Positions 40,592-56,214 of a DNA stretch of 64,000 nt are shown one piece after another. The number at the start of each line of letters is the position of its first letter. Within the stretch, counting starts at the first letter, position 1. A program made the translations under genes and the position numbers. The stretch is from assembly GCF_008704795.1 (NCBI RefSeq), contig NZ_CP023690.1, positions 8,256,501-8,320,500 of the forward strand, written 5' to 3'. This DNA is from Streptomyces spectabilis (GTDB lineage Bacteria > Actinomycetota > Actinomycetes > Streptomycetales > Streptomycetaceae). The notes under the pieces were generated by a model. It saw only the letters and a program-made list of their open reading frames with translations. It searched no databases and was not told the origin of the DNA.

Positions 40592-40652
40592 GACCGAGGG
40601 CGCGCCGACTACCTGACCGAGGGATGCGGGGGCGTCGCCAGGCCTCTACTTT
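40592..40652 (+). promoter_or_regulatory. Candidate activator-dependent promoter of the AHBA synthase operon
   Basis: Two copies of GACCGAGGG lie at 40592-40600 and 40615-40623, 23 bp apart, roughly two helical turns. The second is part of ACTACCTGACCGAGGGATGC (40608-40627), which resembles the boxes before the two P450 genes and the methyltransferases. A -10-like TACTTT lies at 40647-40652, 24 nt from the GAGG core. No good -35 is present, as expected for an activated promoter. This is the weakest of the four copies. Confidence 0.45.
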
Positions 40653-40741
40653 GGACCTGTTGGTCATCTTTTCTCCCCTCCGCGGCACGCGGCCCCGACT
40701 GTCCCGCACCCCGCGTCGAGCCGATCCATGGTTGGAGAAAC

Positions 40742-41902
40742 ATGAACGTGCGACAGACGCCGGAATTCCCCGCGTGGCCGCAGTACGACGAGACGGAGCG
40801 CGAAGGTCTCGTCCGCGCCCTCGAACAGGGCCAGTGGTGGCGGATGGGCGGCAGCGAAGTCGAGTCCTTCGAGCGGGAGTTCGCCGACCACCACGGCGCC
40901 GCCCACGCCCTCGCGGTCACCAACGGGACGCACGCGCTCGAACTCGCCCTGCAGTGCATGGGCGTCGGCCCCGGCACCGAGGTCGTCGTCCCGGCCTTCA
41001 CCTTCATCTCCTCCTCCCAGGCGGCCCAGCGGCTCGGCGCGGTCGCGGTCCCGGTGGACGTCGACGAGGACACGTACTCCATCGACGTGGCGGCGACCGC
41101 CGCCGCCGTGACGCCGAGGACCCGGGTGATCATGCCCGTGCACATGGCGGGCTTCATGGCCGACATGGACGCCCTCGCCAAGCTGTCCGCCGACACGGGC
41201 GTCCCGCTGCTCCAGGACGCCGCGCACGCCCACGGCGCCCGGTGGCGCGGCAGGCGCGTCGGCGAACTCGGCTCCGTCGCCGCGTTCAGCTTCCAGAACG
41301 GCAAGCTCATGACCGCGGGCGAGGGCGGTGCCGTCCTCTTCCCCGACACGGAGATGTACGAGACGGCGTTCCTGCGGCACAGCTGCGGGCGGCCCCGCAC
41401 CGACCGCCGGTACCTGCACGAGATCGCCGGATCCAATCTGCGCCTCAACGAGTTCTCGGCGGCCGTGCTCCGCGCCCAACTGGGCCGCCTCGAACAGCAG
41501 GTGACCACCCGGCAACGGCGCTGGGCGCTCCTGTCCGGACTCCTCGGCGCGATCGACGGAGTGGTCCCGCAGCGCGGCGACGAGCGCACCGACTTCCCCT
41601 CGCACTACATGGCGATGTTCCGCGTCCCCGGCATCGGCGAGGAGCAGCGCAACGCGCTCGTCGACCGGCTCGTGGAGGCGGGCGTCCCGGCGTTCGCGGG
41701 CTTCCGCGCGATCTACCGCACCGACGCCTTCTGGGAGATCGGCGCGCCCGACGAGACGCCCGACGAGGTCGCCGAGCGCTGCCCGCGCACGGAGGCCATC
41801 AGCCGGGACTGCGTCTGGCTCCACCACCGGGTGCTGCTCGCCGCCGAGCAGGCCCAGCACGAGACCGCCGCGATCGTCGCGGACGCTGTGGCCGCCATAT
41901 GA
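40742..41902 (+). CDS. rifK: AHBA synthase (PLP enzyme, DegT/DnrJ/EryC1 family)
   Basis: 386 residues from ATG 40742, with GGAGAA just upstream. It is a PLP-dependent sugar-aminotransferase-like fold with the Schiff-base lysine at residue 188 in FQNGKLMTAGEGGA, the same number as in the characterised AHBA synthase. VTNGTHALELAL, PAFTFISSSQAAQRLG and LQDAAHAHGA are also conserved. It aromatises aminodehydroshikimate to 3-amino-5-hydroxybenzoic acid, the PKS starter, and in complex with the RifL type it may also transaminate the sugar precursor. This is the diagnostic gene of ansamycin and mitomycin-type pathways. It heads an rifK-L-M-N block with ATGA overlaps. Confidence 0.97.
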   Translation: MNVRQTPEFPAWPQYDETEREGLVRALEQGQWWRMGGSEVESFEREFADHHGAAHALAVTNGTHALELALQCMGVGPGTEVVVPAFTFISSSQAAQRLGAVAVPVDVDEDTYSIDVAATAAAVTPRTRVIMPVHMAGFMADMDALAKLSADTGVPLLQDAAHAHGARWRGRRVGELGSVAAFSFQNGKLMTAGEGGAVLFPDTEMYETAFLRHSCGRPRTDRRYLHEIAGSNLRLNEFSAAVLRAQLGRLEQQVTTRQRRWALLSGLLGAIDGVVPQRGDERTDFPSHYMAMFRVPGIGEEQRNALVDRLVEAGVPAFAGFRAIYRTDAFWEIGAPDETPDEVAERCPRTEAISRDCVWLHHRVLLAAEQAQHETAAIVADAVAAI

Positions 41903-43002
41903 GCGTCAGGACGGCCGTCGTCGGGCTCGGCTGGGCGGGCCGTGAGCTCTGGCTGCCGCGGCTGCGCGCGCACGCCGACTTCGACGTGGTGGCCGCCGTC
42001 GACACCGAACCCGCGGCGCGGGCCGCCTTCGACGCCGCCCTCGGCGTTCCCGTGCACCCGACGGCGGGCGCCCTCACCGCCGAGGACGTCGACCTCGCCG
42101 TCGTCGCCGTGCCCAACCATCTGCACGCCGAGGTGGCGGGAGCCCTCCTCGGCAGGGGCGTGCCCGTCTTCCTGGAGAAGCCGGTCTGTCTGACCGCCGC
42201 CGAGGCCGACGTCCTTGAAGCCGCCGAACGCGACGGCGGCGCCACGCTCCTCGCGGGCAGTGCCGCCCCGCACCGCGGTGACGTGGCGGCCCTCGCGGGC
42301 CTGGTGCCGGACCTCGGCCACGTCCGGCACGCCGACCTCTCCTGGATCAGGGCGCGCGGCGTCCCCCGGGCGGGCGGCTGGTTCACCCGGCGCGACGAGG
42401 CCGGTGGCGGCGTGCTGTTCGACCTCGGCTGGCACCTCTTCGACACGCTCGCCTCGCTGCTCGGCCCGGTCCCCTTCACCCAGGTCGTCGGCGTCACGTC
42501 GAGCGACTTCGTCAACGCCGCCGCCTGGGGCGCGGCCTGGCGCCGTGACCGGCCGGAGGCCGCAGGCGCCCCCGGCGACGTCGAGGACACCGCGCGGGGC
42601 TTCCTCGTCCGCGCCGACGGGATCTCCGTGTCGCTGCGCGCGGGATGGGCGTCGCACGAGGCCCTGGACGTCACCCGCGTCCAGCTCGTGGGCAGCGCGG
42701 GCACCGCCGAGCTGCGGTGCACGTTCGGCTTCAGCCCCAACCGCCACCCCGCGTCGGTCCTGACACTGACTCGTGAAGGCACCACCACGGCGGTCCCCGT
42801 GCCGGACGAGCCGATCGGCGACGAGTACCGGCGGCAGCTCGACGGCCTCGCCGCCGCCCTGAAGGAACCGGGCAGCCGCGGCAGGGCCGTCGGCGAGGCC
42901 CGCACGACGGTCCGCGTCATCGAGGACTTCTACGCCTCGGCCCGTTCCGCACCCGCGCGGAACGACGTGCCCGCCGGGCGGTGGACGGGGGAGAACCCAT
43001 GA
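41899..43002 (+). CDS. rifL: NAD(P)-dependent oxidoreductase, Gfo/Idh/MocA family (aminosugar branch)
   Basis: 367 residues from ATG 41899, overlapping the rifK stop by four bases. N-terminal Rossmann motif VVGLGWAG and the family EKP motif in FLEKPVCLT are visible; the C-terminal half carries GGGVLFDLGWHLFD. RifL homologues oxidise UDP-glucose at C3 so that RifK can transaminate it towards UDP-kanosamine (established for the rifamycin family). Overlap with both neighbours suggests translational coupling and fixed stoichiometry with the RifK homologue. Confidence 0.92.
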   Translation: MSVRTAVVGLGWAGRELWLPRLRAHADFDVVAAVDTEPAARAAFDAALGVPVHPTAGALTAEDVDLAVVAVPNHLHAEVAGALLGRGVPVFLEKPVCLTAAEADVLEAAERDGGATLLAGSAAPHRGDVAALAGLVPDLGHVRHADLSWIRARGVPRAGGWFTRRDEAGGGVLFDLGWHLFDTLASLLGPVPFTQVVGVTSSDFVNAAAWGAAWRRDRPEAAGAPGDVEDTARGFLVRADGISVSLRAGWASHEALDVTRVQLVGSAGTAELRCTFGFSPNRHPASVLTLTREGTTTAVPVPDEPIGDEYRRQLDGLAAALKEPGSRGRAVGEARTTVRVIEDFYASARSAPARNDVPAGRWTGENP

Positions 43003-43733
43003 CATCAGCGGTATCGGGAGAGCCGTCCGACGTACTGGACGAGGAGCACGCGAAAGGCCGGGGAGAGAGGACCGCGGCGACGCTCGCGCCCGTCAGGCGC
43101 GCCGTGGTCTTCGACCTGGACGGCGTCATCGTCGACAGCTTCGCCGTGATGAACGAGGCGTTCGCCCTCGCCTACAAGGAGGTCGTCGGCGAGGGCCCGG
43201 CCCCGTTCGACGAGTACCGGCGCCACCTGGGGCGCTACTTCCCGGACATCATGCGGATCATGGGCCTGCCCCTGGAGATGGAGGAGCCGTTCGTCCGCGA
43301 GAGCTACCGCCTCGCCCCCAAGGTGCCGGTCTTCGAGGGCGTCGTCGAACTGCTCCTGACCCTGCGCGTACGCGGGATCAAGCTCGCGGTGGCCACCGGC
43401 AAGAGCGGGCCGCGAGCGCGCTCCCTGCTGGAACAACTGGGCCTCCTGCCGTTCTTCGCCCATGTGCTCGGCTCGGACGAGGTGCCCCGGCCGAAGCCCG
43501 CGCCCGACATCGTGGAGCACGCCCTGCGCCTGCTCGGGGTGAGGGCCGACGAGGCCCTCATGGTGGGCGACGCGCCGACCGACCTCGCCAGCGCCCAGGG
43601 CGCCGGAGTGGCCGCGATCGCCGCGCTGTGGGCCGTGGACGACGCGGACGAACTGCTCGCCGCCCGGCCGGACGCCGTCCTGCGCCGCCCGGCCGACCTG
43701 CTGGACCTGTGCCCGCCCGTGCCGGGCGCCTGA
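42999..43733 (+). CDS. rifM: HAD-superfamily phosphatase (AHBA pathway)
   Basis: 244 residues from ATG 42999 (GGGGAGAA ribosome site at 42987; ATG overlaps the rifL stop). HAD motifs: nucleophile region VFDLDGVIVDSF, motif II VATGKSG, motif III KPAPDIVEHA and the acidic pair in VGDAPTDLASAQ. It resembles phosphoglycolate phosphatases. RifM-type enzymes act in kanosamine supply, hydrolysing the UDP-aminosugar or a phosphorylated intermediate. The first 30 residues before the motif are a low-complexity extension. Confidence 0.9.
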   Translation: MTSAVSGEPSDVLDEEHAKGRGERTAATLAPVRRAVVFDLDGVIVDSFAVMNEAFALAYKEVVGEGPAPFDEYRRHLGRYFPDIMRIMGLPLEMEEPFVRESYRLAPKVPVFEGVVELLLTLRVRGIKLAVATGKSGPRARSLLEQLGLLPFFAHVLGSDEVPRPKPAPDIVEHALRLLGVRADEALMVGDAPTDLASAQGAGVAAIAALWAVDDADELLAARPDAVLRRPADLLDLCPPVPGA

Positions 43734-43748
43734 GGAAGGGCCCGCGGT

Positions 43749-44723
43749 ATGGAGAGCGCCCCGGCCGGGGAGAGCGCCCTGTACCTGGGTGTCGACATCG
43801 GGGGCACCAAGGTCGCCTTCCGGGCGGAGACCGACGCGGAGTGCGTCCACGAGAGCGCGTTCGCGTGGCACCCGCGGCACAGCGCCGCCCGAGACCTACG
43901 CCAACTGGCCGACACCGTCGACGAGTTGCGGGCGCGCCTCGGTGTCCCCTTCCGGGTGGTGGGCGTCGCGATGCCCGCGACGGTCGACCCGGACGGGCAC
44001 GTCCGCGCCTGGCCGGGCAGACCGGAGTGGACCGGCACGGACCTCGGCGCGGCCCTGCGCCCGCTGTTCCCCGGAGCGGCCCTCGCCTGGGCGGACGACG
44101 GCGACCTCGGCGCGCTCGCGGAGTCCAGGGCCTCGGGCTGCGACGACCTGCTCTACCTCGGCGTGGGTACGGGCGTCGGCGGCGGCCTCGTCCTGGGGGG
44201 CGAGCCGTGCCCCGGGCCGGGCCGCGGCTCCTTCGAGGCCGGGCACATGGTCGTCGAGCTGAGCGGCCCGCGGTGCGACTGCGGCCGCAGGGGCTGCCTC
44301 CAGGCGCTGGCCTCGGGCCCCGCGACACTGCGCCGCGCGCACCGGCTGCGGGGGAGCGCGGTCACCTTCGACGACCTGCTCACGGCCTGGGGCGACGGGC
44401 GGCCGTGGGCCGTCACCGCGCTGCGCAGGACCTGCCGGGCCCTGGCCGCCGCGGCGGTGGGCGTCCAGGAGCTGCTCCGGCCGCGCCTCGTACGCGTCGG
44501 CGGCGGCTTCGCGAGCGGCATCCCCGGATTCGCCGGCCTCGTCGCCGACCACGTCACGGAACTGGCCCGCCCCGGCCTGCCCCCGCTCCCGGTGGAGCGG
44601 GCCGCGCTCGGCGGCCTTTCCTCCTTGCACGGCGCGGTGTCGCTGGCCCGCCTGATCGCACCACGCCCCTTTCCGGATTCCGCGGAGCGTCGGGAGAACA
44701 GCCGGGAATCCTTATCAGGTTGA
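43749..44723 (+). CDS. rifN: ROK-family kanosamine kinase
   Basis: 324 residues from ATG 43749, preceded by GAGGAAGGG at 43732-43740. ROK hallmarks: N-terminal phosphate loop DIGGTKVAF, and a zinc-type motif CDCGRRGCLQ after EAGHMVVE-like sequence. RifN phosphorylates kanosamine at O6, feeding the aminoDAHP step. The third codon from the end is TTA (44712-44714), the rare leucine codon read by the bldA tRNA in Streptomyces; it also lies inside the conserved promoter box of the following P450. The C-terminal ten residues are hydrophilic and outside the fold, so the TTA may be tolerated for regulatory reasons. Confidence 0.92.
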   Translation: MESAPAGESALYLGVDIGGTKVAFRAETDAECVHESAFAWHPRHSAARDLRQLADTVDELRARLGVPFRVVGVAMPATVDPDGHVRAWPGRPEWTGTDLGAALRPLFPGAALAWADDGDLGALAESRASGCDDLLYLGVGTGVGGGLVLGGEPCPGPGRGSFEAGHMVVELSGPRCDCGRRGCLQALASGPATLRRAHRLRGSAVTFDDLLTAWGDGRPWAVTALRRTCRALAAAAVGVQELLRPRLVRVGGGFASGIPGFAGLVADHVTELARPGLPPLPVERAALGGLSSLHGAVSLARLIAPRPFPDSAERRENSRESLSG

Positions 44724-44756
44724 GGGGTGCTCAACCAGTTATGGCTGGCCTATCGT
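44710..44756 (+). promoter_or_regulatory. Conserved box plus -10, promoter of first P450
   Basis: CCTTATCAGGTTGAGGGG (44710-44727) overlaps the end of the rifN homologue. After the TTGAGG core comes a 25-nt spacer and then TATCGT (44751-44756). The same box and spacing occur at 48002-48048, and with a 26-nt spacer on the minus strand at 51610-51656. Transcription would start near 44763, giving a leader of about 215 nt. Confidence 0.6.
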
Positions 44757-44760
44757 CCGG

Positions 44761-44866
44761 CGTATCGGCGAAGCACGGAGGATCGGCGGAGCACGGCGTA
44801 TCGGCGAGCACGGCGTATCGGCGGAGCACGGGGAATCGCCGGAGCACGGAGAAGTGGAGCACGGAG
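44761..44866 (+). repeat. Tandem 17-19-bp repeat in the leader of the first P450
   Basis: Five to six imperfect copies of cgtatcggcggagcacgg lie between the predicted start of transcription and the P450 gene. Copies differ by single-base changes and 1-2-base indels. Open frames across it encode only repeat peptides and are not credible genes. Confidence 0.8.
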
Positions 44867-44977
44867 AAATACCGGACGCCGGTCATTCGCCGCCCCGTAC
44901 GGCAGAGCCCGTCCCTGTTCCTGTCGCCCGCCGGTGGGTCAGCAGGTCACTTTCCTCGACGCAGAAGGGGTACCCCC

Positions 44978-46222
44978 ATGACAGCCACCGCCGAGAACGC
45001 GACCGAGCCGATCGACCTGCTCTCGCCGGACCTGACCGCCGACCCCTTCGCGATGTACGCGCGGATGCGCGAGCAGGCGCCGGTCCTGGCCGGCACGGTC
45101 CTCGGGTCACCGATGTGGCTCGTCACCGGCTACGACGACGTGCGTCTCGTCCTCACCGACCCGCGGTTCGTCACCGACCCGGCCTCCGTACGGGGCGAGA
45201 GCCCCGACGGCGGGCACGCCATCCTGAAGAAGCTCAACATCCCGTCCGACGTGGAGGACCTCATCGCCAAGGCGATGATGAACCTCGACGGCGCCCCGCA
45301 CGCCCGGCTGCGCAAGCTGGTCTCCCGCGCGTTCACCGCGCGACGGGTGGCCGAGATGCGCCCGCGCGTCGAGGAGCTGACCGCGCGGCTGCTCGACGGC
45401 ATGGCCGAAGCGGGCCGCGACGGCACGCCCGTCGACCTCGTCGAGTCGTTCTGCTACCCGGTGCCGATCGCCGTGATCTGCGAGCTGGTCGGCATCGACG
45501 AGGCGGACCGGCCGCAGTGGTCGGGGTGGGGGCGGGTGCTGTCCCTGATGCAGGTCGAGCACCTCCCCACCATCCTGCGCGAGTGCTCGGCACACGTCAC
45601 GGACGTGATCCGGCGCCGCCGCGCCGAGCCGCGCGACGACCTGATCTCCGCGCTGATCCAGGCCCAGGAGGACGACGGCGACCGGCTCTCCGACCGGGAG
45701 ATGGTCACCCTCGTCTTCACCATGGTGACCGCAGGCCACGAGTCGACGACGTACCTCCTCGGGAACTCCGTGCTCGCCCTCCTGGAACGCCCCGACCAGC
45801 TCGCCCTGCTGCGCGAGGACCCGTCCCGCTGGCAGCCCGCGGTGCGCGAACTCATGCGTCTGGGCCCCTCCCAGTTCGCGCAGCCCCGGTACGCGGCGCA
45901 GGACGTCGAGCTGAGCGGCGTGCGGATCCCCGCGGGCTCGGCGGTCACCCCGCTGCTCCTGGCCGCGAACACCGACCCGCGCAAGTACGCAGACCCCGAG
46001 CGCCTCGACGTCCACCGGGGCGCCGGGAGCCACGTCGGCTTCGGGATGGGGGTGCACCACTGCCTGGGCGCGCCGCTGGCCTATCTGGAGGCGGAGGTCG
46101 CGCTTCGGGCGCTGTTCGACCGGTTCCCCGGGATGTCCCTCGCGGTGCCGCGCGAGGAGATCCCGTGGGCGCTGCGGCCCGGCTTCACCCGGGTCGCGGA
46201 GCTTCCGCTGCGCCTCGCCTGA
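44978..46222 (+). CDS. Cytochrome P450 (ansamycin tailoring), paralogue 1
   Basis: 414 residues from ATG 44978 with AGAAGGGG upstream. This is a bacterial class I P450: I-helix AGHESTTYLL, ExxR as ELMR, and heme loop GFGMGVHHCLG with Cys362. There is no membrane anchor or fused reductase, so it needs a ferredoxin; one is encoded at 51758-51955. It shares its first 20 residues almost exactly with the P450 at 48160 and is similar throughout, showing duplication. In rifamycin and streptovaricin pathways such P450s oxidise ansa-chain methyls or carbons, or form ring bridges; the site here cannot be told. It converges with the flavin hydroxylase gene 29 bp away. Confidence 0.93.
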   Translation: MTATAENATEPIDLLSPDLTADPFAMYARMREQAPVLAGTVLGSPMWLVTGYDDVRLVLTDPRFVTDPASVRGESPDGGHAILKKLNIPSDVEDLIAKAMMNLDGAPHARLRKLVSRAFTARRVAEMRPRVEELTARLLDGMAEAGRDGTPVDLVESFCYPVPIAVICELVGIDEADRPQWSGWGRVLSLMQVEHLPTILRECSAHVTDVIRRRRAEPRDDLISALIQAQEDDGDRLSDREMVTLVFTMVTAGHESTTYLLGNSVLALLERPDQLALLREDPSRWQPAVRELMRLGPSQFAQPRYAAQDVELSGVRIPAGSAVTPLLLAANTDPRKYADPERLDVHRGAGSHVGFGMGVHHCLGAPLAYLEAEVALRALFDRFPGMSLAVPREEIPWALRPGFTRVAELPLRLA

Positions 46223-46251
46223 CCGCCCGCGGCGGATCGTGCGACGGCCCG

Positions 46252-47898
46252 TCAGACGGCCCCGCGCGGTGCGCCGGCCGGGACCGGTGCGCGCAGCTGG
46301 TCCCGCAGGTCGTCGAGCAGCTCCCGGGTGCCGTCGGGCCCGCTCGCGGCGCCGAAGACGTGGTAGTCCGGGCGGACCAGCAGGGCCGTCGCCCCGAACC
46401 GGGCGAGATACGGCCGGTAGACGTCATCGGTGTCCACCACCTCGACGACGCCGGGCGCCGCGGCGTCCACGGCCAAGGGCGCGTCCTTCGCCGCGGCTCC
46501 GGGTGGCACCAGCCGCACCACGTGGGCCGTAAGACCGTCGAGGAAGGAGAGCCGCTCCGCGTCGAGCGCGGCCCGCGGGTCATCCGTGGTCAGCAGCACG
46601 AAACCGCGGCCCACGACGTCGTCGAAGAGCCCGCAGGAGCCGTCCCGGTCCACGCGCCCTTGCGGGACGACCGCGCCCGCGGGTGCCTGTCCCGCGGACC
46701 GCTGGTGCAGCAGCCCGCCCGGGAGCGGCCTCGCGGGCTCCGGCCCCGACGGCGCGCGCCCGCGCCGGCCCGCCAGCACGGTCGCGTCCCGCTCGGCGGC
46801 GGCCACGGGGTCCGTCACACAGATCAGCCGGCCCAGCTGGACCGACGCCAGGATCGCCTCCCTGGCCTGCGCGCGGCGCTCCTCCGCATAGCTGTCCAGG
46901 AGCGACGGGGCCGCCCGCCCGCGCAGCGCCAGATCCAGCTTCCACGCCAGATTGGCCACGTCCCGGATGCCGGAGCACATGCCCTGCCCGGCGAACGGCG
47001 GCATGAGATGGGCCGCGTCCCCGGCGAGGAGGACGCGGCCCACGCGCCACCGGTCGGCCCAACTGGCCTGGAAGATGTACGTGGTGCTGCGCAGCAGCGT
47101 CGCGGTGTCGGGGGTGACGCCGAACGGGGCGAGCAGCCGCCAGGCCGCCGCGTCCCCGCTCAGCTCGGCGGCGCTCTCGCCCGGCAGGCGCATGAACTCC
47201 CAGCGCCGCCGCCCGGGGCCGCTGCCCACCAGGGTCGTGGGCCTGGCCGGGTCGCAGAGCTGCACGTTGGTCGGGGTGAACGCGCGCGGCTCGCGCAGTT
47301 CGACGTCGCAGAGCAGCCACTCGTAGGAGAACCCGAGGTCGGTGACGGGCACGTCGAGGTGGTCGCGCACGAAGCTGTTGGCGCCGTCGCAGCCCACGAC
47401 CCACCGTGCGGACAGGACGCGGGTGGTGCCGTCGCCGGTGGCCGCCGTCACCTCCACCCGCCGCTCGCCGTCGGCGATCCCCACAGCCTCGTGGCCGCGC
47501 AGGACCGTGACCCCGAGCGCCGCGGCCCTGGCCGCGATCAGCTCCTCCAGGGCGGGCTGGTGCATCGTGCTGGCGTCCGGCCAGCCGTAGGGGCCCGCCG
47601 TGGTGAAGGGGATGTCGAGGAGCGCCGCGCCCGCGGCGGTCCGCCACTGGTAGCCGTTGGCCGCCTCGGTGATCCGGCCGAGGTCCGGGCCGATGCCGGC
47701 GGCGGCGAGGAGCCGGGCCGTCTCCCCGTCGAAGCTGGTCGCCCGGGGGAGCGGATACGGCCGGCGGCGGCGCTCGAGCACGGTCACGCGCAGGCCGCGC
47801 TGGGCGAGCAGCACCGAAAGCACGGCACCGACCGGTCCGTTGCCCACGACGACGACATCCGCGTCCGTGGGGTCCGAAGGCACTTCGAAATGCGTCAA
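46252..47898 (-). CDS. FAD-dependent aromatic monooxygenase (MhpA / Rif-Orf19-like)
   Basis: Class A flavin hydroxylase: GxGxxG in VVVGNGPVGAVLSVLLAQRG, the DG motif GCDGANSFVRDHL, and the GD motif LAGDAAHLMPPFAGQGM. The C-terminal third is a thioredoxin-like domain typical of phenol and 3-(3-hydroxyphenyl)propionate hydroxylases. TTG 47898 is preferred (548 residues) because GTGAGG lies six bases upstream; GTG 47910 would add four residues but has no ribosome site. Rif-Orf19 is the homologue in rifamycin. By analogy this enzyme hydroxylates the AHBA-derived ring during chain growth so the naphthoquinone can close (inference). A strong sigma-70-like promoter precedes it. Confidence 0.9.
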   Translation of the reverse strand: MTHFEVPSDPTDADVVVVGNGPVGAVLSVLLAQRGLRVTVLERRRRPYPLPRATSFDGETARLLAAAGIGPDLGRITEAANGYQWRTAAGAALLDIPFTTAGPYGWPDASTMHQPALEELIAARAAALGVTVLRGHEAVGIADGERRVEVTAATGDGTTRVLSARWVVGCDGANSFVRDHLDVPVTDLGFSYEWLLCDVELREPRAFTPTNVQLCDPARPTTLVGSGPGRRRWEFMRLPGESAAELSGDAAAWRLLAPFGVTPDTATLLRSTTYIFQASWADRWRVGRVLLAGDAAHLMPPFAGQGMCSGIRDVANLAWKLDLALRGRAAPSLLDSYAEERRAQAREAILASVQLGRLICVTDPVAAAERDATVLAGRRGRAPSGPEPARPLPGGLLHQRSAGQAPAGAVVPQGRVDRDGSCGLFDDVVGRGFVLLTTDDPRAALDAERLSFLDGLTAHVVRLVPPGAAAKDAPLAVDAAAPGVVEVVDTDDVYRPYLARFGATALLVRPDYHVFGAASGPDGTRELLDDLRDQLRAPVPAGAPRGAV

Positions 47899-47956
47899 GG
47901 AAAACCTCACAGATACGCACTGCTGGAAGAGCTGAATTCCACCGTGCCGGAAATCG

Positions 47957-47990
47957 CTGGAACAGTATTCCAGGGCGCGAAACGTGTCAA
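47957..47990 (-). promoter_or_regulatory. Sigma-70-type promoter with palindromic operator for the monooxygenase
   Basis: On the minus strand TTGACA (47985-47990) is followed by a 17-bp spacer and TACTGT (47962-47967). A perfect palindrome CTGGAACAGTATTCCAG (47957-47973) covers the -10. The leader would be about 57 nt. The overlap suggests repression by a dimeric regulator not identified here. Confidence 0.6.
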
Positions 47991-48001
47991 GAAGCGGAAA
48001 A

Positions 48002-48048
48002 CCTTACCAGGTTGAGGGATACGCCACCGGCTATTCCTGCCCTAGCCT
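48002..48048 (+). promoter_or_regulatory. Conserved box plus -10, promoter of second P450
   Basis: CCTTACCAGGTTGAGGGAT starting at 48003, followed 25 nt after TTGAGG by TAGCCT (48043-48048). It matches the box before the first P450 in sequence and spacing, although the surrounding DNA differs, so selection rather than simple duplication seems responsible. It lies only 12 bp from the -35 of the divergent monooxygenase promoter. Confidence 0.6.
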
Positions 48049-48159
48049 GCCGAAGAGTCGTGTCAAGGGCCGTACGGACCCGGGAACTTCAAAGTCCGGG
48101 TCCGCCGTGCCCTATTCAGCTCCGCCGCCGCGAAATCCTCGACGCCGAAGGGGAGACCC

Positions 48160-49413
48160 ATGACAGCCACCGCCGAGAACGCGACCGAGCCGGTCGACCT
48201 GCTCTCGCCGGATCTGATCGCCGACCCGTTCGCCGCGTACGCGCGGATGCGTGAGCAGGCGCCGACCCTGACCGGCTCGATCATGGGCGGACGCCCGATG
48301 TGGCTGGTCACCCGCTACGAGGACGTCCGCCAGGTGCTCACCGACCCACGCTTCCACAACAACCCGGCGTCGGTGCCCGACGCCCCGGACACCCGTACGA
48401 CGATCATGCGCCAGCTCAATCTGCCGACCGACCTGGTCGACTACCTCGAAGACAAGCTCATGCAGATCGACGGCGCCGACCACCGCCGCCTGCGCGGCCT
48501 TGTCTCGAAGGCGTTCACGGCACGCCGGGTGGCCCGGCTCCGCCCCCGGGTCGAGGAGATCACCACGTCGCTGCTCGACGCGATGGCCGACGCGGGCCGC
48601 GACGGCGCGCCCGTCGACCTGTTGACGGCGTTCTGCTATCCGCTCCCGTTCACCGTGATCTGCGAGCTCGTCGGGATCGACGAGGCCGACCGCGCGCCCT
48701 GGTTCGAGTGGGGGCACTGCCTGTCCTCGCCCACGGAGCACCGCGAGCGCCTCCCGCGGGTCATGCGCGAGTGCGTCGACCACATGCTGGAGGCGATCGC
48801 GCGGCGGCGCGCCGAGCCGCGCGACGACCTGATCTCCGCGCTCGTCGAGGCCCAGGAGGACGACGGCGACCGGCTCTCCGAGCGGGAGATGGTCACCCTG
48901 GTCTTCACCCTGGTGATCACCGGGCACGAGACGACGACGCACCTGCTCGCCAACTCGGTGCTCGCCCTCCTGGAGAACCCGGACCAACTGGCCCTCGTCC
49001 GGGCCGACCCGTCCCGGTGGCCGCAGGCGGTGAACGAGCTGATGCGGCTCGGCCCGACCCAGTGGGGACTGCCCCGGCACCCGTCGCAGGACGTCGAGCT
49101 CGGCGGCGTGACGATCCCCGCGGGCGCCACCGTCATGCCGCTGATCCTGCCCGCGAACACCGACCCGCGCCGGTACGACGACCCCGAGCGCCTCGACATC
49201 GGCCGCGAGACCGGGCAGAGCCACCTCGGCTTCGGACAGGGGGCGCACTACTGCCTCGGAGCTCCGCTGGCGCTCCAGGAGGCGGAGGTGGCGCTGCACG
49301 CGCTGTTCGAGCGGTTCCCCGGGATGTCCCTCGCGGTGCCGCGCGAGGAGATCGTCTGGACGCTGCGCCCCGGCGTCACCCGCGTCGAGAAGCTCCCGCT
49401 GCGCCTCGCCTGA
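48160..49413 (+). CDS. Cytochrome P450 (ansamycin tailoring), paralogue 2
   Basis: 417 residues from ATG 48160 with GAAGGGGAG just upstream. P450 marks: I-helix TGHETTTHLL, ExxR as ELMR, heme loop GFGQGAHYCLG with Cys365. The N-terminus MTATAENATEPVDLLSPDL matches paralogue 1 almost residue for residue, but the substrate-contact B-C region (about residues 60-105) differs clearly, so the two probably act on different positions of the ansamycin. It has its own copy of the conserved promoter box and ends at a strong bidirectional terminator. Confidence 0.93.
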   Translation: MTATAENATEPVDLLSPDLIADPFAAYARMREQAPTLTGSIMGGRPMWLVTRYEDVRQVLTDPRFHNNPASVPDAPDTRTTIMRQLNLPTDLVDYLEDKLMQIDGADHRRLRGLVSKAFTARRVARLRPRVEEITTSLLDAMADAGRDGAPVDLLTAFCYPLPFTVICELVGIDEADRAPWFEWGHCLSSPTEHRERLPRVMRECVDHMLEAIARRRAEPRDDLISALVEAQEDDGDRLSEREMVTLVFTLVITGHETTTHLLANSVLALLENPDQLALVRADPSRWPQAVNELMRLGPTQWGLPRHPSQDVELGGVTIPAGATVMPLILPANTDPRRYDDPERLDIGRETGQSHLGFGQGAHYCLGAPLALQEAEVALHALFERFPGMSLAVPREEIVWTLRPGVTRVEKLPLRLA

Positions 49414-49418
49414 GCGCG

Positions 49419-49479
49419 CGTACGCCCGTACTCCCTCGCCCTCCCGGAGATCCCGGGGGCGAGGGAGTACGGGCGTACG
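49419..49479. terminator. Bidirectional terminator, perfect 22-bp stem
   Basis: Arms 49419-49440 and 49458-49479 are exactly complementary around a 17-nt loop. It lies between the converging ends of the second P450 and the O-methyltransferase gene, so it can serve both strands. No long T tract follows, as is common in Streptomyces. Confidence 0.85.
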
Positions 49480-49518
49480 GTGCGTGGGATCAGGGCGCGT
49501 CGACGGCGCCCGGCACGG

Positions 49519-50586
49519 TCAGGCGACCTTCGTCGCGCACAGGATGCCGTGGGCGATCAGGGCCCCCGGCATGGTGGTGAGGTCCTGCGCGACCGTCCTG
49601 GTGACCCGGAACCCGGCCTCCTCCAGCCACTTCCGGTACGTCGACAGCTTCTGCGGCCCGCCCTGGCCCATGGTGCAGCCGAGGAAGTAGGCGGGGAAGA
49701 TGTCGACGCCGACGCTGCTGGGCTCCCCGATGTCCTCGGGGTAGACCGGCACCAGGATGTTGACCTTCCCGCCGACCTCCAGGGCCTCGCTCACGCCGTT
49801 GAGGATCGTGCGCACGTCGTCCTTGTCGAACATGTCGAGGAAGTGCTTGATCAGGACGACGTCGAACCCCTTGGGGACGCTGCGGAAGACGTCGCCGCCG
49901 ATGAAGGAGCAGTGTTCCGCCACACCTTGGGCCCGGAAGTTCTCCAGGCACTCGTCCTCCTTCTCGGGCAGGTCGAACGTCGTCACGCGCAGGCCGGGCG
50001 ACGCCTTCAGACGGTAGGTCAGGATCGCGCCGAGCCCGGTGTTCCCGGCCAGGTCGAGCACCTGCGAGCCGGGCGGTATGTGGATGTTGCGGAAGAACCA
50101 GGGGTCCATGTGGGCGGTGACGTCGTCCATCATCGTCGCCCAGGACTCGCGCAGGTCCTGGTGCTCGGCCACGGCCTCGTACAGGTTCCCCTCGAATCCG
50201 TACAGCTTGTCCAGGCCGACGATGCCGCCGGTCCTGACGCTGTCGGTGAGGTAGAACAGCTGCCGGAGCATGACCACCTTGATCATGTTCAGGACGGGGA
50301 GCACCCGCTGGAGATCGGCTTCGGACACGTCCGCGAACGCGTCGAGGGAGTAGCCGCCGGACGCCTTGTCGAAGGCGACGAAACCCTCCTTGACGGGCAG
50401 GTGCAGGAGTTGCTCCACGGCGTCCGGCTTGGCGCCGACGGCCTCGCCGAGCTGGGCCGCGGTCATGCCGGGCCGCTTGCGCAGCGCGTCGACGATGCCG
50501 AGCTCGAAACAGGACAGCAGGATCATGAACCGCGAGGGCCCCACCATGTACTCGCGCAGGCGCGTGAACGTGGCCACTGCATTCAT
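49519..50586 (-). CDS. SAM-dependent O-methyltransferase-like protein (family 2)
   Basis: 355 residues from ATG 50586, with GAAGGA ten bases upstream; a TTG nine bases earlier is too close to that site. N-terminal winged-helix dimerisation region (residues about 15-95), then a Rossmann SAM fold with VLDLAGNTGLGA, TTFDLP and FIGGDVF. At the catalytic position, where plant-type O-methyltransferases have LHDW, this protein reads FLDMFD, so the general-base His is replaced. It may methylate a phenol or acid by proximity, or be a non-methylating relative. It shares an operon with the upstream methyltransferase (66-bp gap). Confidence 0.85.
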   Translation of the reverse strand: MNAVATFTRLREYMVGPSRFMILLSCFELGIVDALRKRPGMTAAQLGEAVGAKPDAVEQLLHLPVKEGFVAFDKASGGYSLDAFADVSEADLQRVLPVLNMIKVVMLRQLFYLTDSVRTGGIVGLDKLYGFEGNLYEAVAEHQDLRESWATMMDDVTAHMDPWFFRNIHIPPGSQVLDLAGNTGLGAILTYRLKASPGLRVTTFDLPEKEDECLENFRAQGVAEHCSFIGGDVFRSVPKGFDVVLIKHFLDMFDKDDVRTILNGVSEALEVGGKVNILVPVYPEDIGEPSSVGVDIFPAYFLGCTMGQGGPQKLSTYRKWLEEAGFRVTRTVAQDLTTMPGALIAHGILCATKVA

Positions 50587-50652
50587 CGCACTCAATTCCT
50601 TCGGGTTCGCCGGGTCGGGTTCGCTGGGCCGACTTCGCCGGATCGGCAGGGC

Positions 50653-51456
50653 TCACTCGGGGCGCCGGGCGACGATCCTGGCGTGGTGGAGACCGGCCTT
50701 GCCCGCGGCGAACGCCGCCAGCAGCACCTCGTCCACGAACTCGTCGACGCGCTCGCCCAGCGCGTCGGCCTGCGTGGCGAAGCCCATCAGCTTGTACCGC
50801 CTGCGCATCTCGGCCAGCTCCGCGTCGGACGGCAGGGAGCCGTTCCCGCCCAGGGCGTGCACGATCGCCGGGTCGTAGTCGACCAGTTCGAGGCCCGCGT
50901 CCCGGAGCACCTCCGCCACCTCCTCTGCCGGGTAGTCCCGCATCGCGGGCGGCGCCGAGGCCAGCAGGCCCTTCCACTTCGCGCTGCCAGAGACCTCGCG
51001 CACGATCCCGAACATCCCCGCGCCGTCGCCGCGCGGCTGGGCGCCGGACCACTGGAGTACGAGATGGCCGCCCGGGCGCAGCGCACGGGCCATCCGGCGC
51101 AGCGGCTCCTCGGCCCCGGTCAGCCAGTGCAGCACCCAGGAGGAGTGGATCAGGTCGAACCGGCCGCGCGGCAGCTCCAGTTGCTCGGCCGGGCACACCT
51201 CGGCCCGCACGGAGAGCCCGGCGCACCGCTGCCGCGTGGCCGCCACCATGGACGGGGAGGCGTCGCTGGCCCACACCTCGAAGCCCCGCTCCGCGACGGC
51301 CCGCGCGACCTCCCCGGTGCCGCAGCCGATCTCGGCGAAGGTGCCGCCCTTCTCCAGGGCGCCGCCAGCGCGTTCGAGCGCGGCCAGGGCCGTCTTGATG
51401 TGGGGCGCGTTCACCTGCGCGTAGTCCTCGGCCAGCCAGGCGTTGACTGCGGTCAT
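50653..51456 (-). CDS. Class I SAM methyltransferase (Rif-Orf14-like size and type)
   Basis: 267 residues from ATG 51456, chosen because AGAGAGGA lies just upstream and the sequence before it is low-complexity. SAM motif FAEIGCGTGEVARAVA, acidic loop ASDASPSMV, and SSWVLHWL followed by the RALRPGGHLVLQW strand are typical of trans-aconitate or ubiE-like methyltransferases. Length and type resemble the rifamycin 27-O-methyltransferase (272 residues), but the same fold also makes methyl esters, so the acceptor is unknown. It is the first gene of a two-gene minus-strand operon headed by the conserved box at 51637-51656. Confidence 0.88.
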   Translation of the reverse strand: MTAVNAWLAEDYAQVNAPHIKTALAALERAGGALEKGGTFAEIGCGTGEVARAVAERGFEVWASDASPSMVAATRQRCAGLSVRAEVCPAEQLELPRGRFDLIHSSWVLHWLTGAEEPLRRMARALRPGGHLVLQWSGAQPRGDGAGMFGIVREVSGSAKWKGLLASAPPAMRDYPAEEVAEVLRDAGLELVDYDPAIVHALGGNGSLPSDAELAEMRRRYKLMGFATQADALGERVDEFVDEVLLAAFAAGKAGLHHARIVARRPE

Positions 51457-51609
51457 CGACGAAGTCCTCTCTCTGCCGGGAAGACCGCGGCGGCCCGAGC
51501 GCGAGCCGAACGGCACACCGCACTCGCGCGACACCGCGGTCATGAGCGCCCGGGACGCCGGAAGGGATGAGCGCGCGGGCCCGTTCCTGGAACCGTTCCG
51601 CGGCTTCGC

Positions 51610-51656
51610 AGCCTAGGACGGCCCCGACCGCACTTGGCATCCCTCGACCTGATAGG
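51610..51656 (-). promoter_or_regulatory. Conserved box plus -10, promoter of methyltransferase operon
   Basis: On the minus strand CCTATCAGGTCGAGGGATGC (51637-51656) is followed 26 nt after TCGAGG by TAGGCT (51610-51615). It matches the P450 boxes at most positions. The predicted leader is about 147 nt. Confidence 0.58.
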
Positions 51657-51999: not shown

Positions 52000-52025
52000 C
52001 CGGCTCGCAGCCGGGTAACGTTACC
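52000..52025. promoter_or_regulatory. Palindromes upstream of the ferredoxin gene
   Basis: A perfect 12-bp palindrome GGTAACGTTACC (52014-52025) touches a 7-bp inverted repeat CCCGGCT/AGCCGGG (52000-52016). They lie about 45-70 bp before the ferredoxin start and just after the luxR stop. The first looks like an operator; the second may end luxR transcription. Confidence 0.5.
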
Positions 52026-52052: not shown

Positions 52053-53351
52053 TCAGTAGTCGGCGCTCGAAATCCGGCTCCAGGTACGGGTGAGTTCGAC
52101 GCGTGAGGCCACGTTCATCTTGCGGAAGATCTTCTTGAGGTGGAATGCCACCGTGTGCCCGGAGATGAAGAGGCGCTCGCCGACCTGGGAGTTCGTGAAG
52201 CCCTGGCTCACCAGCTCGGCGACGGCCACCTCCGAATTGGTGAGGGAGCCGATCTTCACGCTGTCATGGGTGGCGTACTGCGGATAGCGGCCGCGCCGCA
52301 CACCGAGTGACCGGAGCCTGCTCACGACCCGGCGGGCATCGCGCGGGGCCGAGGACTTCGAGTATCCGTCCACCGCCCGTTCGAGGACGTCCACCGCCCG
52401 GTCACGCTCCTGAAGCGTGTCCGCGAGCAGTTTTCCGGCGTCTTCGTAGGCGGACGCGGCCGCCCACAGATCCCGGTGCGCCTCGGCCGCGGCGACCAGG
52501 AATTCCGGATTCTCCGCCAGGAGACCCTCGGCGTGCGTTCCCGCCGCTTCCACGGACCGGACGCCGCTGTTGCGCGCGGCGAGTTCGGACGCCTCGGCGG
52601 CCACCCGCTTGGCGAGGACCTCGTCGCCGAGCTGCCGCGCGGCCCGGACGAGCCAGGCGGCGGCGGCCGGCTGCGCGGCCAGGAGCTCCAGGATGAGCTG
52701 GTCGTCCGTGATGATGCCGACGACGAGGTGGGCGGCGCTCGTCGCACCGCCCTGCACCTCCAGGAGCTGGGCCGCCGCCCAGGCGCACTGGCTGGGGCGG
52801 TGGACCGTCTGCCCGAGCAGGGCGTCGTCCCGGAGCTGGTTCGCGAAGTCCGAGCTCACGCTCATGTTGCCCTGCCTGAGGGCGCTGAGCGCCATCACGG
52901 CGTGCGCCTCGGGGAGCAGACAGGTGAGGCCGAGCTGCTGTGCCTCGCGCACCCCCTTCTCCGCCAGGTCGACCGCGGTGTCGATGTCCCCCTGGGTGAA
53001 GGCGAGTTCCGCCGCGCACGTCAGTGAGGCCGCCCTCAGGCCGCCGGATTTCGTGGTGGCGGCCGTCAGTTCCGCCACGCCCGCGAGCACGCGTGCTCCG
53101 GCCGCCGGTTCGCGGATTCTCACCAGGAGCGCCGAGTGCCAGATCCTGGCGAGGCCCACGCATTTCCCCGAGCACTCCGGTGCTGTTTTCCCGGCTCTTT
53201 CCGCGAGGCGCAGGCCTTCTGTGAGATCGCCGCGCGACCAGGCGGAAAAGGAGAGTGTGGCGAGCCGAACGGTTTCGCAGGAGCTGTTCTCGCAGGCTCC
53301 CATGACGTAAAGGGATGGCGGCAGCTGCAGGCGGAACGGTGAATCGAGCAT
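52053..53351 (-). CDS. LuxR-type transcriptional regulator, probable cluster regulator
   Basis: 432 residues from ATG 53351, with AGGAG six bases upstream; the longer open frame is not needed. The C-terminal 65 residues form a LuxR helix-turn-helix: LTNSEVAVAELVSQGFTNSQ followed by GERLFISGHTVAFHLKKIF. The first 350 residues are alpha-helical with TPR-like periodicity (repeated GD/QGD and ALAEKG patterns) and contain no Walker A or B motif, so this is a short form of the LAL-type regulators with the ATPase lost. Its place between the tailoring genes and a response regulator makes it a good candidate to bind the conserved box, but nothing in the sequence proves that. Confidence 0.88.
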   Translation of the reverse strand: MLDSPFRLQLPPSLYVMGACENSSCETVRLATLSFSAWSRGDLTEGLRLAERAGKTAPECSGKCVGLARIWHSALLVRIREPAAGARVLAGVAELTAATTKSGGLRAASLTCAAELAFTQGDIDTAVDLAEKGVREAQQLGLTCLLPEAHAVMALSALRQGNMSVSSDFANQLRDDALLGQTVHRPSQCAWAAAQLLEVQGGATSAAHLVVGIITDDQLILELLAAQPAAAAWLVRAARQLGDEVLAKRVAAEASELAARNSGVRSVEAAGTHAEGLLAENPEFLVAAAEAHRDLWAAASAYEDAGKLLADTLQERDRAVDVLERAVDGYSKSSAPRDARRVVSRLRSLGVRRGRYPQYATHDSVKIGSLTNSEVAVAELVSQGFTNSQVGERLFISGHTVAFHLKKIFRKMNVASRVELTRTWSRISSADY

Positions 53352-54421
53352 CACATCTCCTGTCAGTGGATCATCACTAACGCCTGGTGGTCCGCGCGCG
53401 GTTCCGGCAGCACCGATCACGGGGGCGTGCGCGAGCGCGGTTGTCGTGATGGCGGACAGGCGCGCAAGGGGGCGCGCGCCACCGCTATATGACGCCTCGT
53501 CGACTACCGCGTGGCGCCGGCTTCGCCGACCGAAGGCGGGCAGACATGCCGCAGCGGCGGCACGAGTCGGTGCCGATGAGACGGAACTGGCGGGAAGGGG
53601 GCGGGGGCTCAAGTTGCATCTGACATGTTCCGATGATCCAACGTTAAGCCCCGCAAGTGCAGGAGCACTTCAGCGGAGGTGAAGCATAATTTCAAAGCTG
53701 TGGCGGGCGCGCGGAGGTGTCGCTTGCGATTTGACCGATTTTGCAGCGATCTTCCGGGGGCCTGGCATTCCCGTGGCCAATTCCTTGCCGTGGCCAGTTT
53801 CTTACCTTAGCGGCAGTGCGCGGACTTACGGGCGAGTAACCCGTGCATTCGCGCCTGCTTGGCTGTGACTCGTCATGTTGCGGGGCGGCCGGATCGCGTG
53901 GCGGCAGGGGCTTTCGGGGTCTTTGCAGGATGATCTTGGTGTGGCACGGTGGGTGCCTGCGCGAGCGCGCCCGGGTGTGCCGCTCGGGCGAAGTGGGCTG
54001 GTGGGGCGGGCAGTTCGGCCCGGCCGGGGCGGCGGGTGATTCAGGTGCGGGCCTTGCGGCAGCCGGGTGCGGAGCGACCGTCCAGGACGGAGTGGACCTT
54101 GTGCGAGAAGTGGCCCGCGAGTCGGTCGGGGGAGCGGCCTCCCGCTTCGGCGCGGCAGGGCCCGGTGATCACCGGGGGCTCTGTCCGGCCCGGCGGCAAC
54201 GGCGTCACCACTCGTATCCAGGGTTCCTTCCGCGCCGGCGGCGACAACTGCCGCGCATCTCCCGCCAGTTCACTCAAGCAAAATTCAAGCCGGAACAACA
54301 GCTACCGTTTCGGCGCGATATCAGCCGGGTAGGTCTTCAGGTCGGATCAATGGGGGGCGGGTAGTTCAGATCGAGGCAAGAGGAGCCGGGCAGGTCATCA
54401 GTATTTCTGGAGGGAAGCGCT
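53352..54421. other. 1.07-kb gap without a credible gene
   Basis: It separates luxR from the response regulator. Short open frames here (for example 53446-53682 and 53843-54364 on the plus strand) have no ribosome site, biased composition and no recognisable fold. The part from about 53620 to 53860 is richer in A and T than its surroundings. It holds overlapping inverted repeats: AAGTGC/GCACTT at 53655-53670 and CTTCA/TGAAG at 53668-53684. Promoters for both flanking regulators probably lie here. Confidence 0.6.
53655..53684. promoter_or_regulatory. Two overlapping inverted repeats
   Basis: AAGTGCAGGAGCACTT (perfect 6-bp arms) is followed directly by CTTCAGCGGAGGTGAAG (5-bp arms), sharing CTT. 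They lie about 300 bp before luxR in the AT-richer stretch. Possible regulator sites. Confidence 0.4.
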
Positions 54422-55153
54422 TTGGGAAAGCCATCCACACGCGTTCTGCTGGTAAGCAATGATGCGCGTCTGAGCACTGCCTTGCACCACCCACCGCTCC
54501 CTGCGAAGTACTTCGTCATCTCGGTGCCGACCAGCGCCCAGGCCCTGGAGAACTTCGGCGATTTCGATCTGTTGCTGCTCGACTCCTCCACCCCGGGCAT
54601 GGACAGTCGCGAGGTCTGCAAAAGAATCCGCGACCAGGCGTCGGTGCCCATCATCATCCTCGGCCCCTGCGTCAATGAGATCGACCGGGTCCTCGCGCTC
54701 AACGCCGGAGCGGACTACTGCGTGGTGAAATCGGACTCGCTCCACGAATTGCAGGCGAGCATGGACGCCGTCATGCGCCGCTCGTATCCCTGTCCGGTCG
54801 GCCAGAATTCTCCGGGGGCAGCCGCTCAGGCCGGTGAGGTCCTGGTCGCGGGGCCGCTGCGCCTCAATCCGCGCAACCGGGACGTGACCTTGCACGGACG
54901 GCCGGTGCGGCTGACCCCCAAGGAGTTCGACCTGCTCGCCATGCTGATGGAGGACCCCGAAACGCTGCACACCCGCAAGGCCATCATCGCCCGGGTGTGG
55001 AACGAGCACTGGTTCGGCTCGACGCGGACGCTGGACGTGCACATCGGGGCGCTGCGGCAGAAGCTCGGTTCCTACGACTGGATCGAGACCAAACGCGGGA
55101 TCGGATTCCGGCTCGGCACCGTGCCGTCACCCGGCGCGCGCGACTCGCCGTAG
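54422..55153 (+). CDS. Orphan OmpR/PhoB-family response regulator
   Basis: 243 residues from TTG 54422, fixed by GGAGGGA at 54409-54415. N-terminal receiver (residues about 8-115) with the phospho-acceptor Asp in LLLLDSSTPG and Lys in CVVKSDS; the usual early acidic pair reads SNDA, so one acid is missing and phosphorylation may be weak. The C-terminal winged helix (about 145-235) has LTPKEFDLLAML, TLDVHIGALRQKLG and the wing IETKRGIGFRL. No histidine kinase gene is nearby. It is a possible pathway regulator and a second candidate for the conserved box. Confidence 0.88.
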   Translation: MGKPSTRVLLVSNDARLSTALHHPPLPAKYFVISVPTSAQALENFGDFDLLLLDSSTPGMDSREVCKRIRDQASVPIIILGPCVNEIDRVLALNAGADYCVVKSDSLHELQASMDAVMRRSYPCPVGQNSPGAAAQAGEVLVAGPLRLNPRNRDVTLHGRPVRLTPKEFDLLAMLMEDPETLHTRKAIIARVWNEHWFGSTRTLDVHIGALRQKLGSYDWIETKRGIGFRLGTVPSPGARDSP

Positions 55154-55185: not shown

Positions 55186-55674
55186 CTACGGCGTCCGCCC
55201 GCCGACCTCGCCGTTCGCGGAGTGCGGGCTGTGCCGCGGTGCCGCGGCGAGGTGCAACAGGGCCCGGGCGGCCAGGCGGTAGCCGAAGGCCCCCAGGCCG
55301 ACCACGACCCCGCTCGCCAGCGGAGCGATCACCGACTCGTGGCGGAATCGCTCGCGGGCCCACACGTTGCTGAGATGCACCTCGACCCACGGCGGCGCGT
55401 AGCTCGCCAGCGCGTCGCGCAGGCTCCATCCCGCGATCATGAGGGCGCCCGGATTGACGATGGCCCCGACCGTGCTCTCGCCGTGCCGGTGAATCGCGCC
55501 GACGAGGTCCCCTTCCCCGTCGTGCTGGACGGAGAGGACCTCCCATCCCTGGGCACGTACTTCCTCGGCGACCGCCGCCTCGATGTCGGCGAGCGTGTCG
55601 GTGCCGTATATCTCGGGCTCACGCCGGCCCAGAACGCCCAGGTTGGGTCCGTTCAGGAGAAGCACGACACTCAA
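55186..55674 (-). CDS. rifJ: Type II dehydroquinase (aminodehydroquinate dehydratase)
   Basis: 162 residues from TTG 55674, chosen because GCGAGG lies six bases upstream and it gives the standard start LSVVLLLNGPNLGVLGRREP; a longer reading adds an unconserved leader. Type II dehydroquinase motifs are complete: NGPNLGVLGRREPEIYG with the catalytic Tyr, NPGALMIAG, EVHLSN with the catalytic His, and RHESVIAPLASG. It converts aminodehydroquinate to aminodehydroshikimate, the missing step between the rifG and rifK homologues. In the rifamycin cluster rifJ also lies far from the other AHBA genes. It converges with the response regulator gene 32 bp away. Confidence 0.93.
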   Translation of the reverse strand: MSVVLLLNGPNLGVLGRREPEIYGTDTLADIEAAVAEEVRAQGWEVLSVQHDGEGDLVGAIHRHGESTVGAIVNPGALMIAGWSLRDALASYAPPWVEVHLSNVWARERFRHESVIAPLASGVVVGLGAFGYRLAARALLHLAAAPRHSPHSANGEVGGRTP

Positions 55675-56214
55675 GGTGCACCTCGCAATTCCTTGCAATA
55701 CCTTCGGGATGCGGACGACCGGCGAACCGTGGGGCGCCCCCATAATCCCGACACCGGGCACGGCGCGCCATCATCAGAATTGATAGTTCCGGTGGCGCGC
55801 GGGCGGCGGCCGTACGCCCCGGCACGAGGAGCGGCGACTCTACTAGCATTGGTAGACCTGATGCTGAGGGCAGATGTGGGCGCCGGTACCTATACCCCTG
55901 CCCGTACCCGCCGCGTACGCTGGCGACAGTTCCTTGAGGGAGCGGGGGTTGGGGGTGCGGCGCGGAACGGCGCGGAACGGCTTTCCGTACGGAAAAGATC
56001 TCCTCGTTGCGGAGTCGTTCGCGAGCCACCGGACGGCGTGAGTCACCGGACAGCGGCAGAATTCGAGGTCGGGAATGGCGGAAGCCGACTGAATGAGCCG
56101 AGAGGCGACCGTGTTTCCGTTGATCCGAGGTTTCCCCCTGCCGCAACCACCCTCCCGGAACCCCAAGTTCAGCGCCACAACCGGAACCGCTGGCCCCGAA
56201 GGTGAGGATGAACC
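55675..56214. other. 540-bp intergenic region with interleaved inverted repeats
   Basis: It lies between the divergent rifJ homologue and a DUF5988-like gene. No coding frame is credible. At 55839-55865 two inverted repeats interlock: TCTAC/GTAGA (55839-55856) and AGCAT/ATGCT (55845-55865), a plausible operator. Distance from both genes (165 and 350 bp) leaves the controlled promoter unclear. Confidence 0.5.

Follow-up and report, generated by a model that had tools for sequence, protein, structure and literature searches.

In Amycolatopsis mediterranei, the rifamycin cluster carries within it the gene for a LuxR-type activator, RifZ (Rif-Orf36, AMED_0655), which reportedly recognizes the motif CTACC-N8-GGATG (Li et al. 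2017) in front of rifK and further operons. An excerpt of another study states that RifZ protects part of the rifK promoter, that RifZ and GlnR occupy different sites there, and that the promoter has a measured -10 element TAGCCT and a transcription start at -79 (PMC7062684). Partial texts describe two other systems: in the chaxamycin cluster a RifZ-like LuxR gene, cxmY, adjoins a divergent gene for an atypical OmpR-type response regulator, CxmZ (PMC4551226), and in geldanamycin clusters GdmRI and GdmRII are LuxR-type helix-turn-helix activators of an ansamycin cluster derived from 3-amino-5-hydroxybenzoate (AHBA) (PMC6784220). Here we analyze a 64,000-nucleotide stretch from Streptomyces spectabilis (C1:8256501-8320500, part of a 9.81-Mb contig; hereafter the window), in which a sequence box recurs before AHBA, cytochrome P450 and methyltransferase genes. 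In all likelihood this box is the operator of the cluster's own RifZ-type LuxR activator, acting at six promoters by class II activation. The system is very probably a new member of the RifZ regulon, and because the proposed activator is a relative of RifZ, it would add one more case to a type of switch already known.

The cluster is, by sequence comparison, of streptovaricin type. A P450 encoded left of the window (L021:16592-17797) aligns through residues 1-401 with structures 6m4p and 6m4q, about 381 of 401 residues (~95%, counted by eye) being identical; available portions of PMC7481197 identify these structures as StvP2 and give the streptovaricin cluster five P450 and three methyltransferase genes, the same numbers as are found in this region. 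In S. spectabilis KCTC 9218T, the streptovaricin cluster is placed at 8.10-8.20 Mb in an extract of PMC9396898.

In a scan of the window, CCTTAYCAGGTTGAGGG has three matches at three mismatches or fewer against 0.11 expected, and three or more were reached in none of 100 shuffles. Set in one register, the four boxes of the window are CTACCTGACCGAGGGATGC (40609, plus strand), TTATCAGGTTGAGGGGTGC (44712, plus), TTACCAGGTTGAGGGATAC (48004, plus) and CTATCAGGTCGAGGGATGC (51655, minus), and from their starts the hexamers TACTTT, TATCGT, TAGCCT and TAGGCT lie 38, 39, 39 and 40 nt downstream, respectively. An earlier note on this DNA had claimed four such sites with a constant spacing between box and hexamer. 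The sites do exist, at 44710-44726, at 51641-51656 on the minus strand, from 40609 before the rifK homolog, and at 48002-48018 (the note gave 48003), and the spacing is as constant as claimed. The rifK copy was called weaker, but it is an exact fit to the reported RifZ motif rather than a degenerate one; the 51655 site departs from that motif by one mismatch and the 48004 site by two. Half-sites alone are unspecific, since CTACC-N8-GGATG at two mismatches has 23 matches in the window, below the 46 expected. Two other candidate elements were dropped: the short core CAGGTYGAGGG, which is unspecific because at two mismatches 66 matches are expected and 136 occur throughout the window, and the inverted repeat GGTTGAG-N5-CTCAACC of the 44712 site, which the other five sites lack and which the sister genome G425 has in altered form.

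Across the genome, the four-site pattern has just four perfect matches, the same four sites, a partly circular result, and at up to two mismatches it shows no excess (338 matches versus 326 for the reversed pattern). Among the matches with a single mismatch is one, TTACCAGGTTGAGGAGTGC, at a distance of 23.7 kb from the window on its left side, and a matrix built from five sites led to a sixth, CTACCAGGTTGGGGGATTC, with TAGCCT 38 nt past its start. One of these two left sites stands before a methyltransferase gene (L021:15858), behind which comes the StvP2-like P450 gene. The other stands before a P450 gene (L021:19373, identified as such by its sequence), behind which an open frame of 5715 codons is taken to encode a polyketide synthase. 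With the pattern describing all six sites, YTAYCWGRYYGRGGRRTNC, the 9.81-Mb genome yields six perfect matches. Rather than being scattered evenly, all of them, including the two left of the window, fall in C1:8232768-8308155, within 75 kb and in one cluster, and all six boxes start 38-40 nt upstream of the position of a -10-like hexamer.

Class II activators of the LuxR type use a site centred at about -42. With the hexamer set at -12 to -7, the centre of the box would fall some 42 nt upstream of the predicted start of transcription, at the location of a -35 element. For this strain we infer binding, dimerization, activation, the start sites and how far the operons extend, as follows. The GerE helix-turn-helix domain of the activator would bind CTAYC-N8-GGATG, probably as a dimer, and, because the box sits over the -35 position, the bound protein would recruit RNA polymerase to the TANNNT -10 element. 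The units governed by the six promoters would be the rifK-like AHBA operon, the two P450 genes, the methyltransferase gene pair and, left of the window, the methyltransferase gene with the StvP2-like P450 and the P450 gene with the polyketide synthase. A box located about at the -35 place, with tight spacing to the -10, might instead be an unusual -35 element for an alternative sigma factor, no activator being involved. We judge this very unlikely: some 18 conserved positions are long for a -35 element, box presence tracks a LuxR-type gene, and RifZ, according to the excerpt cited above (PMC7062684), protects part of the A. mediterranei rifK promoter.

The box, its spacing, its confinement to the cluster, its conservation and its co-occurrence with the regulator are all observed by computation. 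For co-occurrence, the best 80 of 134 AHBA loci found were searched with the six-site matrix, which at score 14 gave 82 matches; ten controls with permuted columns gave 7-17, and the mirror matrix gave 10. In the 30 loci whose genomes have a RifZ-type gene, TANNNT stands at 38-40 for 58 of 62 matches, versus 0 of 20 in the other 50 loci. A score of 12 yields 59 sites that combine box and hexamer; they belong to 28 of the 30 loci, and the other 50 have none. Those 50 include three second loci of regulator-bearing genomes (L061, L085 and L093), one locus in a genome with a partial relative (L090), and one left out of the regulator search (L080). Three genomes (G038, G024 and G023) have two AHBA synthase loci each (L061/L072, L047/L085 and L046/L093, respectively), with box and -10 at just one of each pair. 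In 25 of the 30 loci no more than 300 nt separate a box plus hexamer from the AHBA synthase gene; by our reading the distance is 321 nt in L046, and L028 has a site just under the threshold. The 28 box loci represent seven genera: Streptomyces, Kitasatospora, Actinacidiphila, Actinomadura, Amycolatopsis, Micromonospora and Frankia.

Of the 30 RifZ-type genomes, 28 contain the strict pattern CTAYCARRBYRRGGGATR (78 sites); S. spectabilis itself and G425 have it too, as does one of 18 others, and the reversed pattern is found in 0 of 50. The count in those genomes is not independent, because the pattern was written after their matches had been seen. A sample of 392 genomes of the genus is more independent, with at least nine genomes common to both sets. 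In this sample the box is present in 13 of 13 genomes with both a RifZ-type gene and AHBA synthase, in none of four with the RifZ-type gene only, in two of 24 with AHBA synthase only and in four of 351 with neither, that is, in 6 of 379 outside the first group, and the reversed pattern has one match. Cut-offs were E <= 1e-55 for RifZ-type genes (set after the list had been seen) and 1e-150 for AHBA synthase, with four candidates scored per genome; eight genomes having weaker RifZ-like matches were counted as lacking the gene, and none of the eight has the box.

In the 24 regions fetched, 16 sites lie on contigs that carry neither the AHBA synthase nor the regulator gene, and 15 of these show TANNNT at 38-40; two further sites, in L208 and L224, do likewise. 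A distant site in G239 does not, and strict-pattern sites in regulator-less genomes have the hexamer in 0 of 6 cases. We regard the matches in regulator-less genomes, one A. rifamycinica match on another contig and the distant G239 match as chance.

The sister genome G425, whose regulator is 93% identical, keeps all six sites. Identity over the six amounts to 108/114 positions in the box, 92/114 in the spacer, 43/48 in the -10 zone, 222/360 upstream and 288/384 downstream, in a comparison that is anchored on matrix matches and so favors the box. The claim that the DNA around the boxes is unrelated holds for most site pairs, which lack likeness in their flanks, but not for all: the two P450 genes are paralogs with 11 of 18 spacer bases in common, and the 48004 and L021:15769 sites are alike upstream (0 of 300 shuffles as high). 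Such likenesses, and the 69% identity of the P450 genes, would suit a reading of the boxes as functionless relics of duplicated promoter DNA. That reading is barely credible, given the unlike flanks of most pairs, the better preservation of box than of flanks in G425, and the recurrence of the same box and spacing in many genera.

As dedicated activator of a cluster regulon, the earlier note had offered either the LuxR protein or the response regulator. The joint occurrence of RifZ-type genes and boxes in seven genera points to the former as the probable activator, and the latter was rejected. Were the OmpR-type response regulator to bind the boxes, leaving the LuxR protein some other role, the location of its gene would fit, for it adjoins the cluster and is divergent from the LuxR gene, just as the excerpt of PMC4551226 has CxmZ next to CxmY. 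We consider this extremely improbable, however, as the protein is not present wherever boxes are. Among 123 loci compared, which include the 80 AHBA loci (up to 21 kb) and 42 regulator loci (flanks up to 1.5 kb), only G425 has a close counterpart (92% identical); the matches listed in 38 other genomes are scattered and 34-47% identical, and boxes persist there, the strict pattern occurring in 28 of the 38. In place of the expected acidic pair the response regulator has S12-N13-D14, with one usual acidic residue gone, and the available part of PMC4551226 reports a similar departure for CxmZ. A long divergent gap of 1,067 nt (window 53355-54421) separates its gene from the LuxR gene, on which, as a matter of speculation, it may act.

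The proposed activator, the LuxR protein, has 433 residues, in which Pfam recognizes a GerE domain only. A structure model suggests a helical solenoid plus helix-turn-helix, with MalT domain III as best structural match, tied with Rap proteins; we claim no ligand from these MalT and Rap/AimR fold matches. Identity as a GdmR-type LAL (large ATP-binding regulator of the LuxR family) was rejected, because the N-terminal Walker ATP-binding region that GdmRI and GdmRII have, according to the partial text of PMC6784220, is found neither by Pfam nor in the model. The protein is alone of its kind in its genome, the next match scoring 2.3e-8. Its A. rifamycinica relative matches over the full length at 42% identity and, within the DNA-binding stretch, has 42 of 60 residues in common with it; judged through this relative, the protein is related to the RifZ type from end to end and its gene lies, as expected of that type, in an AHBA cluster. 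In 48 genomes behind 50 AHBA loci, with 36 candidates scored in most genomes, a match at E <= 1e-20 turned up in 37, and in 30 there was a relative at E <= 5e-50; 28 genomes behind other loci, two of them already searched, add one strong but partial match (S. samsunensis, G064). RifZ-like genes (36-39% identical), with neither a close AHBA synthase nor the box, occur at L150, L154, L156 and L157 (genomes G088, G424, G422 and G464, respectively), and may serve other clusters through another motif.

The likeness to the RifZ regulon extends from the location of the activator gene inside an AHBA cluster to the TAGCCT -10, the predicted position of the rifK box, the targeting of the rifK promoter together with further operons, and the box, the reported CTACC-N8-GGATG being the core of the family consensus, CTAYCAGRYYGRGGGATGY. 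For A. kentuckyensis and M. halophytica, where the -10 is TAGCCT, the same box geometry predicts a start at -79, the value measured in A. mediterranei; for two other Amycolatopsis it predicts -77 and -78. Differences are the streptovaricin-type cluster and the other genus, the modest identity to the A. rifamycinica relative, and the half-site variants TTAYC, GGGTG, GGATA, GAGTG or GGATT at single sites. The S. spectabilis locus differs also in having no strict GlnR match before the regulator gene, where one relaxed match was found. Among the papers listed in a search of open-licence literature, none was seen to describe the box or an activator of the streptovaricin cluster, and a search with the text of the motif found no match.

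Several observations weigh against an activator-operator pairing of this kind. Loci L031, L034 and L053 come from genomes with a RifZ-type gene and have no box near the AHBA synthase gene (in L034 and L053, by eye, that gene starts about 50 nt past its neighbor), and two RifZ-type genomes, G011 and G029, have zero strict matches. Among the six sites of S. spectabilis, that before the methyltransferase gene L021:15858 has CACCCT in place of TANNNT. Nine matches to the all-six pattern with one mismatch are located elsewhere in the genome, and at up to two mismatches there are 153 matches versus 56 for the reversed pattern; because near matches are this frequent, specificity is confined to good matches. 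A search for boxes found no convincing one before the genes for a flavin adenine dinucleotide-dependent monooxygenase (window 46252-47901, minus), a PapA-type acyltransferase (L021:17884-19170, minus), a ferredoxin-like protein, the LuxR protein itself and a dehydroquinase (55189-55674, minus), the best score in that search being 12.8 at 55786 minus, without a -10. The start predicted in A. rifamycinica is -32, not -79; the comparison with RifZ sites draws on the reported motif and on the A. mediterranei rifK values given in PMC7062684; and common descent of clusters inflates the co-occurrence counts.

On balance, we favor the broader view that CTAYC-N8-GGATR and a TANNNT placed 38-40 nt behind it form a single regulatory code, which AHBA clusters in at least seven genera of actinobacteria have inherited along with the RifZ-type gene. 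The code would be specific enough to mark cluster promoters, to link scattered contigs belonging to one cluster and to name the activators of silent naphthalenic ansamycin clusters, and such activators may act across clusters. For the streptovaricin-type cluster, sequence alone yields a likely activator together with six target promoters, and the motif of a rifamycin producer becomes a testable, low-noise marker for many ansamycin clusters. Because overexpressing the LuxR gene of a rifamycin-like cluster in Actinomadura raised the products of that cluster, according to the accessible part of PMC12114206, the marker could help in switching on silent relatives.

Table 1. Coordinates in the window of the boxes, the -10-like hexamers and the genes discussed.
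Feature	Position	Strand	Remark
RifZ-type box, AHBA operon (rifK-like gene)	40609..40627	+	
-10-like hexamer TACTTT	40647..40652	+	38 nt past box start
AHBA synthase gene (rifK-like)	40742..41902	+	133 nt past box start
RifZ-type box, first P450 gene	44712..44730	+	overlaps stop codon of preceding open reading frame (43749-44723)
-10-like hexamer TATCGT	44751..44756	+	39 nt past box start
First P450 gene	44978..46222	+	
RifZ-type box, second P450 gene	48004..48022	+	
-10-like hexamer TAGCCT	48043..48048	+	39 nt past box start
Second P450 gene	48160..49413	+	69% identical to first
RifZ-type box, two methyltransferase genes	51637..51655	-	
-10-like hexamer TAGGCT	51610..51615	-	40 nt past box start
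Methyltransferase gene	50653..51459	-	first behind box
O-methyltransferase gene	49519..50586	-	second behind box; presumed co-transcribed with first
RifZ-type LuxR (GerE) activator gene	52053..53354	-	proposed box binder
OmpR-type response regulator gene	54422..55153	+	rejected as box binder

Between the LuxR gene and the small ferredoxin-like reading frame, at 52014-52025, lies a perfect 12-bp palindrome, GGTAACGTTACC, noticed by eye, which is possibly the operator of another regulator. A gene for Hsp90 (HtpG; window 56594-58474, plus) stands just outside the cluster.

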